In this document: piece after piece, positions 26,490 to 30,453 of the stretch | Layout: the number at the start of each line of letters is the position of its first letter | Position numbering within the stretch: the first letter of the stretch is position 1 | From: Burkholderiales bacterium | GTDB lineage: Bacteria > Pseudomonadota > Gammaproteobacteria > Burkholderiales > JAHFRG01 | NCBI GenBank assembly: GCA_035543335.1 | Contig: DASZZH010000025.1 | Coordinates: 1 to 64,000, forward strand | Reading direction: 5' to 3' | Length of the DNA: 64,000 bases | Made by a program: the position numbers and the translations under genes | Notes under the pieces: model-generated | Database searches by the model: none | Seen by the model: the letters and a program-made list of their open reading frames with translations, nothing else | What the model was told of the DNA's origin: nothing

Positions 26490-27292
26490 GCGCGGTGGCT
26501 TTCTCCTCCCGGCGCATCGGCGCCATGGTGCGGCGCCACGTCTATCTCATGCGCAAATCCTGGCCGCGCATCCTCGAGCTCATGTATTACCCGTCGGTGC
26601 AAATGATACTGTGGGGTTTCATCGCCAAGTTTCTCACCACCAATAGCTCGTGGGTGGCGCAGGCGCCGGGCTTGCTGATTGCCTCGGTTTTGCTGTGGGA
26701 CATTTTGTTCAGAAGCCAGCTCGGCGTTTCGCTCTCCTTTTTCGAGGAAATGTATTCGCGCAACCTCGGCCATCTTTTCGTGAGTCCCCTGCGGCCTTAC
26801 GAGCTGGTGTGTTCGAAGCTCGTCATCAGCCTGCTGCGCACGCTGATTGGCGTGGGCGGCGCGGCGCTTTTGGCGATACCGCTTTACCATTATTCAATTT
26901 TCAGCATGGGCCTGCCGCTGATTGCGTTTTTCGCCAACCTCATGGTGATGGGCTGGGCGATCGGCCTTATGGTTTCGGCGCTGGTGCTGCGCTGGGGCCT
27001 GGGTGCGGAAAATCTAGCGTGGGCGCTGATTTTCGCCGCCGCGCCGGTGAGCGGGGTGTATTACCCGGTGAGCGTGCTGCCCGGCTGGCTGCAGCCGTTT
27101 GCGCTGGCACTGCCCTCAAGCCACGTGTTCGAAGGCATGCGCGCGGTGATGATCGAACACCACTTTCGCACCGATCTCCTGCTCAACTCGCTGCTGCTCA
27201 ACTTGATCTATCTTGTCGCGGGAGTGGCGATTTTCCTGGCTGCATTCCGCGCGGCGCGCAAGCGTGGGCTGTTGCTGCATATCGGCGAATAA
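26486..27292 (+). CDS. ABC-2 type transporter permease
   Basis: A 268-aa inner-membrane permease with about six hydrophobic segments, partner of the preceding ATPase. The segment FAAAPVSGVYYPVSVLPGWL is typical of ABC-2 permeases. It ends RAARKRGLLLHIGE. The last ~90 bp and the 20 bp after the stop recur in altered form at 28552-28664 and 30378-30453, marking the 3' end as an insertion point. Confidence 0.88.
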   Translation: MSAVAFSSRRIGAMVRRHVYLMRKSWPRILELMYYPSVQMILWGFIAKFLTTNSSWVAQAPGLLIASVLLWDILFRSQLGVSLSFFEEMYSRNLGHLFVSPLRPYELVCSKLVISLLRTLIGVGGAALLAIPLYHYSIFSMGLPLIAFFANLMVMGWAIGLMVSALVLRWGLGAENLAWALIFAAAPVSGVYYPVSVLPGWLQPFALALPSSHVFEGMRAVMIEHHFRTDLLLNSLLLNLIYLVAGVAIFLAAFRAARKRGLLLHIGE

Positions 27293-27313
27293 ATCGTGTC
27301 TGACCCTATTTAT
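27291..27313. repeat. AAATCGTGTCTGACCC motif at the permease 3' end
   Basis: This short motif, AAATCGTGTCTGACCCTATT and three more bases, starts in the permease stop codon. A close copy follows the second permease 3' end at 28643-28664. Related GGGTCAGAC / GTCTGACCC words border many REP- and RAYT-type repeats, as a matter of general experience. Confidence 0.6.
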
Positions 27314-27473
27314 CCGCGCTGTTTTCCGCACAGCACTCGACAAGATTCCCGAAGGGTGTAGGCTATTGCTGCTACTCAGCGATGAGAGACAAGGGATGAA
27401 AGAAAGGGGGCCAGCCGGGTCTGCCGCGTGACTTCCGTGGGCGATGGCGACCCACTGGACTAGGAGGAGCATC

Positions 27474-28515: not shown

Positions 28516-28551
28516 CAAAAGAATGGGGTCAGTCTGACTCCCTTTTTTCGC

Positions 28552-28644
28552 AACCTGGCCTACATCGTTGCCGGTACCGCGATTTTTCTCGCGGCTTTCC
28601 GCGCGGCGCGCAAGCGCGAGCTTTTGCTGCATATCGGCGAATAA
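28552..28644 (+). pseudogene. Second copy of the ABC permease 3' end (30 codons plus stop)
   Basis: In the permease frame this reads NLAYIVAG and ends AAFRAARKRELLLHIGE with a TAA stop, closely matching the end of the gene at 26486-27292. Nothing of the rest of the gene precedes it. DNA identity to the native end is clearly below 100 percent, and it is nearer to the third copy at 30378. It looks like an allele of the same gene that arrived with foreign DNA. Confidence 0.8.
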
Positions 28645-28680
28645 ATCGTGTCTAATCCTATTTACCATTCGTTGTCCGTA

Positions 28681-28761
28681 GCCTAACGCTCCGGTTGAGC
28701 GGCCGGTTTGCCCGGCGTCTTGCGCCGGGTAAACCGGTCCGCCTCGAACCGGTTGTTAGGC
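28681..28761 (-). other. Integron attC site (59-base element)
   Basis: On the minus strand the site runs R'' GCCTAAC, a 67-bp imperfect stem-loop and R' GTTAGGC, all in 81 bp. The two 7-bp ends are exactly complementary. The inner arms (starting CCGGTT, ending CCCGGCG) pair with a few unpaired extra bases on one side only, as required for strand choice by an integron integrase. The loop is CAAGA. The stop codon of the preceding gene lies in R'', typical of a gene cassette. Confidence 0.9.
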
Positions 28762-29527
28762 CGTAAATATCATTTTCAAACCCGCGATTGCCAACACAAC
28801 TGCCAACAGACGTTGGATCGTTGGATTTCCCAAACGACGACTCCCAAACTCTGAGCCGATATAGCCGCCAACGGCTGCTGCAAGTGCCCACCATGGCAAA
28901 GCGGTGGGAAGTTCTGGAGTTCGTGAAAGGAACCCCAGCAAGCCCGCAACGGAGTTGACCAGAATAAACGCCGCAGCAACTGCCGACACCCTTCGGGGCT
29001 CCGCCCAGCCTCTTAGTAAGAGAAGCGGACTCAAGAATATGCCGCCCCCGACGCCCGTTAACCCCGACAACAGCCCAATACCGGCACCCGCGACCATTGT
29101 AACCGGCAGAGGTTGGGGGTTGATTTCACGGGCAGTGAGTCGCTTCGCTTCGCGAAGCGACCGCCAAGCGGTACCGAGGAGCACCAGCCCGACAAGCGGT
29201 TTATAGATAGCGCCCGGGAGTGACAGAAACCCACCCAGAACAGCAAACGGAATCGAGGCGAGCGCAAACGGCCAAAAGAGCGACCACGAAAAGTGCCCAG
29301 CGCGATAAAACTTGATGGTTACGATGACTGAAACCAGGATGTTTAAGCTAAGTGCCGTCGGTTTCATTATTCCGGGCGCGAGGCCAAACAACGCCATAGC
29401 TGCAAGATACCCCGACGCGCCGGCGTGACCGACGGAGGAATACAGAAGCGCCGCAACAAAGATGAGGGTGGCTAGGGCGACAACACTTCCAACGTCCAAG
29501 GAGGCCCCCTTCTTATTTTCGGCCTAA
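28687..29527 (-). mobile_element. Single integron gene cassette of about 841 bp
   Basis: The cassette is read on the minus strand. Its 5' junction is the GTTAGGC at 29522-29528 and its 3' junction is the R' of the attC at 28681-28687. Cutting both between G and TT gives an 841-bp unit holding one gene and its attC. Upstream of the 5' junction I see no attC or attI structure, and no integron integrase gene exists in the window. This looks like a cassette at a secondary site, or the last survivor of an array. Confidence 0.85.
28756..29499 (-). CDS. TauE/SafE family membrane permease, cassette-borne
   Basis: A 247-aa membrane protein with about eight hydrophobic helices in two repeats. The sequence GLLSGLTGVGGGIFLSPLL is the family core motif (sulfite/organosulfonate exporter or related anion permease). 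It starts with TTG at 29499 after AAGGGGG. Its TAA stop lies within the attC site. It is the only gene of an integron cassette. The exported anion cannot be told from sequence. Confidence 0.85.
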   Translation of the reverse strand: MDVGSVVALATLIFVAALLYSSVGHAGASGYLAAMALFGLAPGIMKPTALSLNILVSVIVTIKFYRAGHFSWSLFWPFALASIPFAVLGGFLSLPGAIYKPLVGLVLLGTAWRSLREAKRLTAREINPQPLPVTMVAGAGIGLLSGLTGVGGGIFLSPLLLLRGWAEPRRVSAVAAAFILVNSVAGLLGFLSRTPELPTALPWWALAAAVGGYIGSEFGSRRLGNPTIQRLLAVVLAIAGLKMIFTA

Positions 29528-29736
29528 CTAGAAATAGATACCAGAAATGGTGTAATTAATTACCCATTTAATGGGGTATGTTTTCATCGTATAACAGGAT
29601 CAATGCGCTATAAAGACGCAAAAAATATTGTCACCCGCGTCGTGTTCCGCGCGGCGCGGCCGATCAAGGCGACCAACAGGGTGCTCGAAGGGGCGAAGGG
29701 CTCCCGGCTGCTATGCCGATGATCCCGCGGTAGCGA

Positions 29737-30177
29737 TCAGCGCCAATGGGCAAGAATCATCGCGATGACTTGAAGGTTCACAAAGTGGTATGCGGCATTC
29801 AGCCCAAACAGACTCCAACTCCTGTTCTCCCAGGCGACCGATCCCAACAGCATCGGGACAAAGAAGCCAATCCAGGTGAAAAAACCGCTGAAAAATCCGT
29901 AGACGTAGGACGGCGCATCTGCTCCCACACCCCACACCGACGGGCGCCAGACTTCGGCCGAATGCGCCAGGACATAGGCCGTCAGGAACGTCCCGAGCAG
30001 CGTCAGCCCCATCCCGCGCATCATGACTTTGGGATCGGGCTTGCAGTCCGTCGGCATCTTCATGAGACTCGCCCATTTTTTCCCGAACAGAGGCCCATGC
30101 CAGAGCCATCCGAAAAGGAAACTTGCGACGACGGCGGTGACCACCGCCAAGTAGTTGAGGTGAATGTCTGGATGCAT
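29737..30177 (-). CDS. DUF1761 family membrane protein
   Basis: A 146-aa protein with four hydrophobic segments of the DUF1761 family, function unknown. The N-terminal LAVVTAVVASFLFGWLWHGP and the central WHGPLFGKKW are typical. I chose the ATG at 30177, which has a GAGGAG ribosome site; the frame extends to 30237 without a better start. It lies in the inserted region between the cassette and the IS remnant. No attC follows it, so it is not an integron cassette. Confidence 0.75.
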   Translation of the reverse strand: MHPDIHLNYLAVVTAVVASFLFGWLWHGPLFGKKWASLMKMPTDCKPDPKVMMRGMGLTLLGTFLTAYVLAHSAEVWRPSVWGVGADAPSYVYGFFSGFFTWIGFFVPMLLGSVAWENRSWSLFGLNAAYHFVNLQVIAMILAHWR

Positions 30178-30283
30178 AACTCCTCCTCGGTCATGAACCA
30201 ATGACCACGATATCACAACCGCCGCGGTTGATGCCAAAGTTCCAGCAGGTCAGCCTGGGAAATGAGGTCTGACTGAGCTGACT

Positions 30284-30377: not shown

Positions 30378-30453
30378 TGCTGCCGGCACCGCGATTTTTC
30401 TCGCCGCGTTCCGCGCGGCGCAAGCGCGGGCTTTTGCTGCATATCGGCAAGTG
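30378..30453 (+). pseudogene. Third copy of the ABC permease 3' end
   Basis: The sequence after the IS remnant (CCGGCACCGCGATTTTTCTC ...) matches the copy at 28552-28644 more closely than the native gene. One base is missing in the GCGGCGCAAGCG region relative to the others, and the end is CGGCAAGTGA, not CGGCGAATAA. It is a decayed fragment with no coding value. Confidence 0.75.

Follow-up and report, generated by a model that had tools for sequence, protein, structure and literature searches.

The locus described here raises the question of whether a single permease gene, bounded by GTTAGGC motifs and lying apart from any integrase gene, is a true integron gene cassette and, if so, how it came to occupy its present position. 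The original prediction had been that of an isolated cassette, either inserted at a secondary site or left behind as the last piece of an array. The window, by which we mean the whole stretch of DNA that was analysed (64,000 nucleotides), is the first 64 kb of the 312.7 kb contig C25, in a Burkholderiales genome of 2.25 Mb. The features of the locus are listed in Table 1.

Table 1. Features of the cassette locus and of its surroundings (positions are those of the window).
Feature	Position	Strand	Evidence or remark
ABC permease gene 3' end, copy 1 (end of the complete gene)	27199..27312	+	Sequence comparison
ABC permease gene 3' end, copy 2	28551..28664	+	82% identical to copy 1
attC recombination site (R'' 28755-28761, R' 28681-28687)	28681..28761	-	Fold z -7.85; matrix 33.7
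Gene cassette, 841 bp between G^TT cleavage points	28687..29527	-	Body 93.3% identical to the relocated L037 copy
TauE/SafE family permease gene, 247 aa, TTG start, stop in R''	28756..29499	-	PF01925 E 1.1e-35; dN/dS 0.18
attI-like site, cleavage G^TT at 29528/29527	29524..29577	-	Homology to the C25 intI attI and to copies in C27, at C25:85992 and at G002 C112:23541
Leader; sits between intI and attI in the C25 and C38 integrons, intI absent here	29578..29640	-	Alignment z 8.2 / 6.6
DUF1761 gene	29737..30237	-	PF08570 E 5e-27
ABC permease gene 3' end, copy 3	30381..30448	+	G001/G002 synteny resumes here

The cassette and its attC site

Read on the minus strand, GTTAGGC is found at 28681-28687 and at 29522-29528, with its complement at 28755-28761, exactly where the original prediction had placed the junctions of an 841-bp unit, and the span between the two G^TT points (28687-29527) contains a single gene. 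The attC site proposed at one end of this unit was borne out. R'' and R' are complementary at 7 of 7 positions and conform to RYYYAAC and GTTRRRY, the inner arms pair imperfectly, with one-sided extra bases, and the whole site folds into a single hairpin. As single-stranded DNA, 28681-28761 reaches -35.5 kcal/mol, compared with -16.6 +/- 2.4 kcal/mol for shuffled sequences (z -7.85), and it scores 33.7 on a weight matrix derived from 11 further attC sites of this genome, the maximum across 100 simulated windows being 21.7; a similar matrix built on 13 attC sites favours the cassette direction. The larger bulges of the stem are C, G and A, all on the 5' arm, which on the bottom strand read G, C and T. 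An attC site is expected to carry extrahelical G and T bases, and both are thus included among the bottom-strand bulges. Furthermore, a discrete insert with the same ends is present elsewhere, in the genome L037 described below, and empty sites are known. The attC site at 28681-28761 and the permease gene are a real integron gene cassette.

No second attC was found in the 64-kb window, in agreement with what had been read from the letters, and an Rfam search of the region returned no attC-like family, with matches at chance level only. The attC census took in almost the whole of contig C25 and portions of other contigs. GTTAGGC by itself was dropped as evidence of a cassette, as its frequency in the window is that of chance (5 observed for 4.2 expected).

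The permease gene

The only gene of the unit had been taken for a TauE/SafE permease, and its match to PF01925, at 123.9 bits for a gathering cut-off of 32.6 and over profile positions 2-237 of 237, makes it a full-length member of this family. The gene ends with a TAA inside R''. Proteins of the TauE/SafE family export anions, in many cases sulfite or organosulfur acids. Comparison of the window copy with that of a sister species (G002) gives a dN/dS of 0.18, which indicates that the permease has been kept functional, under purifying selection between the two copies.

Among 80 TauE relatives in all, both ends of 26 apart from L037 were inspected by eye and attC-like junctions were found in none (0/26), so that the idea of a TauE family generally borne on cassettes was rejected. 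Plasmid-borne TauE relatives are all less than 60% identical to the cassette gene. A paralogue at C28:168704-169444 is 62% identical, and no attC was found there.

The sequence upstream of the cassette

No intI was found in the window, and tblastn finds no intI remnant. The predicted lack of an integrase is therefore correct for the window and incorrect for the genome, which has three intI loci. Two of these, at C38:54466-55407 and C23:9305-10243, are full length, and the third, at C25:223002-223945 on the same contig as the window, is split across two frames, being a pseudogene unless the assembly is in error. Both full-length IntI proteins retain the Arg, His-x-x-Arg and Tyr of tyrosine recombinases, as read from the alignment, and attC sites adjoin both of their genes.

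The window had also been thought to lack an attI, and this proved wrong: the 117 bp directly upstream of the cassette (29524-29640, minus strand) are homologous to the attI and the intI leader of C25 and C38. In local alignments, 29524-29645 gives z values of 8.2 and 6.6 with the attI/leader of the C25 and C38 intI, respectively, 36 with a near-identical stretch of C27, 10.3 with a copy in an array on C25 and 10.7 with contig C112 of G002. The control in the same test, a site at a ybjQ-like gene of G002, gave a z of -1.3, and the C23 attI showed no similarity to 29524-29645 in local alignment. The sequence just upstream of the cassette looks like an attI-like site with an intI leader, its identity as attI coming from homology and not from recombination. 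Compared with a complete integron, the locus has an attI upstream of its first cassette, by homology to the C25/C38 attI and leader, and is without an intI beside this attI.

This homology bears on how the cassette arrived. The first of the two origins initially considered is that an integrase placed it in ordinary window DNA containing GTT, that is, at a secondary (attG) site, as might be suggested by a single isolated cassette with no intI nearby, and by the presence in G002 of the same cassette at a secondary site. We nevertheless regard this origin as quite improbable for the window copy, since it is largely refuted by the upstream DNA, which is homologous to the attI and leader that adjoin intI genes: the target of an attG insertion is neither attI nor attC, whereas the cassette here immediately follows an attI-like site that has its leader, and the restored site, TAG^TTAGGC, has the full GTTRRRY core. 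Alternatively, the attI-like stretch might be the end of a delta-attI-type cassette, to which the TauE cassette was joined and which has since been lost. Such cassettes have been described in mobile integrons (PMC12901181), and at C25:85945-86023 an attI-like sequence stands where a cassette, X, elsewhere has its attC. However, the attI-like cores of the window and of C27 carry the intI leader, which a cassette end would not need, and this second alternative appears quite improbable as well.

The relocated copy in a sister species

In a collection of 84,980 species, each represented by a single genome, the closest relative of the cassette is in L037, a betaproteobacterial MAG (nzgw569) that corresponds to G002, of the same genus. 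The cassette bodies are 93.3% identical over 28755-29530, and the match stops at the cassette ends. In G002 the cassette is placed between a ybjQ-like gene (a label given from sequence, without a family search) and rlmB, at a site that is empty both in the source genome of the window (G000) and in G001. Since the joined flanks of G002, CCCATAG^ATAGTACC, match the empty sites CAATAG^ATAACACC of G000 and AACAG^ATAAGC of G001, the insertion was precise, at G^AT in the stop codon of the ybjQ-like gene. The TTAG of the cassette gave this gene a new stop codon, and TauE lies downstream on the same strand. GWT is the consensus core for secondary-site insertion. The G002 target, CATAG^ATAG, is empty in G000 and G001 and has no similarity to attI (the z of -1.3 given above), and secondary-site cleavage by IntI1 at G^AT has been described (PMC10127599). 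By its sequence, the G002 copy is a true secondary-site (attG-type) insertion.

The G002 attC reads GCCTAAC|CGGAGCG, about 61 nt, the entire hairpin, being missing, and because this hairpin is gone the G002 cassette should no longer be able to leave via attC recombination. No intI above the curated cut-off was found in G001 or in G002, the latter being 85% complete. The chance frequency of GTTAGGC alone would be compatible with a fortuitous hairpin beside an ordinary chromosomal gene, an explanation of negligible probability, refuted by fold and matrix scores far beyond those of the controls and by the precise relocation of the unit in this congener.

Between G000 and G002, dS is 0.18 for the cassette gene and 0.13 for the second common cassette, and thus lower than for four backbone genes around the locus (0.55-1.18). 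These values suggest either an exchange of the cassettes later than the separation of the two species, or a common source from which both were supplied.

Origin of the locus

We consider it probable that the locus is an integron platform that lost its intI, and that consists of attI with its leader followed by one intact cassette. The proposal that the cassette is the last piece of an array came close, as the locus looks like a platform without intI that holds one cassette. An integron integrase, either the IntI of this genome or that of a donor, would have inserted the cassette by joining the folded attC to attI at G^TT, and intI, whose absence is observed, would later have been lost from the platform. 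The cassette should still be movable in trans by the two full-length IntI of the genome (C38 and C23). Its gene would be transcribed from the leader; the promoter is the weakest step of this scheme, because a search of the leader yielded no sigma-70 consensus promoter. In the sister species, as the filled and empty sites show, the cassette moved separately to the G^AT of the ybjQ-like stop codon, a non-attI site, and the loss of the attC hairpin after this insertion fixes the gene in place. As the window contains no intI remnant, the platform may alternatively have lacked an intI at this place from the outset, attI and leader having been copied without it.

An integrase-less integron with a cassette is part of known integron biology, and the present locus looks like a good natural example of it. 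Cassettes with attC sites and no nearby intI have been proposed to be degraded integrons; by default, IntegronFinder 2 reports as CALIN at least two attC without intI, and single-attC cases are possibly true positives. The window resembles a CALIN in that it has a cassette with attC and an intI that is not nearby, and differs from it by its single attC, below the default of two, and by the attI and leader that are still present. It resembles a sedentary chromosomal integron by its attI-like site with leader, its cassette directly behind and its chromosomal location, but intI is absent at this locus and survives at three others. Secondary-site insertion is illustrated by aadB in RSF1010 (Recchia and Hall, 1995, as cited in PMC10127599), and cassette insertion at attG sites is attributed to Loot et al. 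(2024) where they are cited in PMC12444791. The G002 copy is akin to these insertions, being a single cassette inserted precisely at G^AT, outside attI and attC, at a site empty in relatives; it differs from them by its missing attC hairpin, and the window copy differs by its position at an attI-like site. As for delta-attI-type cassettes (PMC12901181), the likeness is with C25:85945-86023, where an attI-like sequence replaces attC behind cassette X, whereas this putative case is chromosomal and involves a different attI type.

Most records of cassettes outside integrons come from resistance plasmids and from assays in E. coli. The two sister environmental species provide a natural pair, an intact attC at an integrase-less attI in one and a hairpin-less cassette in a stop codon in the other, which represents a concrete route from a cassette gene to an ordinary chromosomal gene.

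Other attI-like copies

Besides that of the window, at least three further intI-less attI-like copies are present in the genome. A common core of ~50 bp, with TTTCTAG^TTAG at its end, recurs at C25:85992, with a shorter form at C25:84489, and the same core lies upstream of a single cassette at G002 C112:23541; when the 620 kb scanned were shuffled five times, no copy turned up. An array without intI is present on C25 at about 82.5-90 kb. A bolder reading, which we hold to be unlikely, is that of a distributed integron, in which intI-less attI platforms scattered across one small chromosome (the window, C27, two in the C25 82-90 kb array and one in the sister species) would act as landing pads for IntI encoded elsewhere and working in trans. 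The platforms would also be propagated as units in their own right, and the repeated ABC-permease tail, found at the border of two of them, might provide the means. If intI-less attI copies do act in trans, an integron need not be a single locus.

Several details of these regions were noted in passing. The attI and leader copy of C27 (contig positions 26596-26751) is 89% identical over 130 bp and without intI; it is bordered by ~40 bp of ABC permease tail, and then comes a candidate cassette cut by the contig end. The second copy of cassette X (C25 85943-86023) has an attI-like sequence in place of the attC of the first copy. An insertion hotspot beside an amino-acid-kinase-like gene contains a cassette array without intI in this genome (C25 80.4-90.4 kb), DUF1761, attI, a cassette and a TerC-like gene in G002 (C112 22.5-25 kb), and only about 340 bp in G001. 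At about 55450-55730 of C38, the intI-attI leader reads as a tandem duplication.

Permease-tail repeats and inserted modules

In both G001 and G002, the 3' end of the ABC permease gene is present once, and the sequence immediately after the gene corresponds to the window from position 30393 onward, the insert being absent. Relative to these genomes, the window has about 3.1 kb inserted after the permease gene, the last 70-110 bp of which are present three times. The permease tails bracket two modules, one with TlpA-like and DsbD_N genes and one with the cassette, attI and DUF1761, and the leader, too, has a fragment of the tail at its outer end. The repeats might possibly result from single-crossover integration of circles with a common gene tail. 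Neither an integrase nor a transposase could be recognised in the two inserted modules, and no empty version of module B was found among 399 genomes of the order. DUF1761 and attI seem to have moved as a pair, because the G002 DUF1761 gene likewise lies close upstream of an attI-like site and cassette, at a different locus. Finally, a 25-nt inverted repeat, 88% complementary, is formed by 27348-27372, in module A, and 28973-28997, within the TauE gene.
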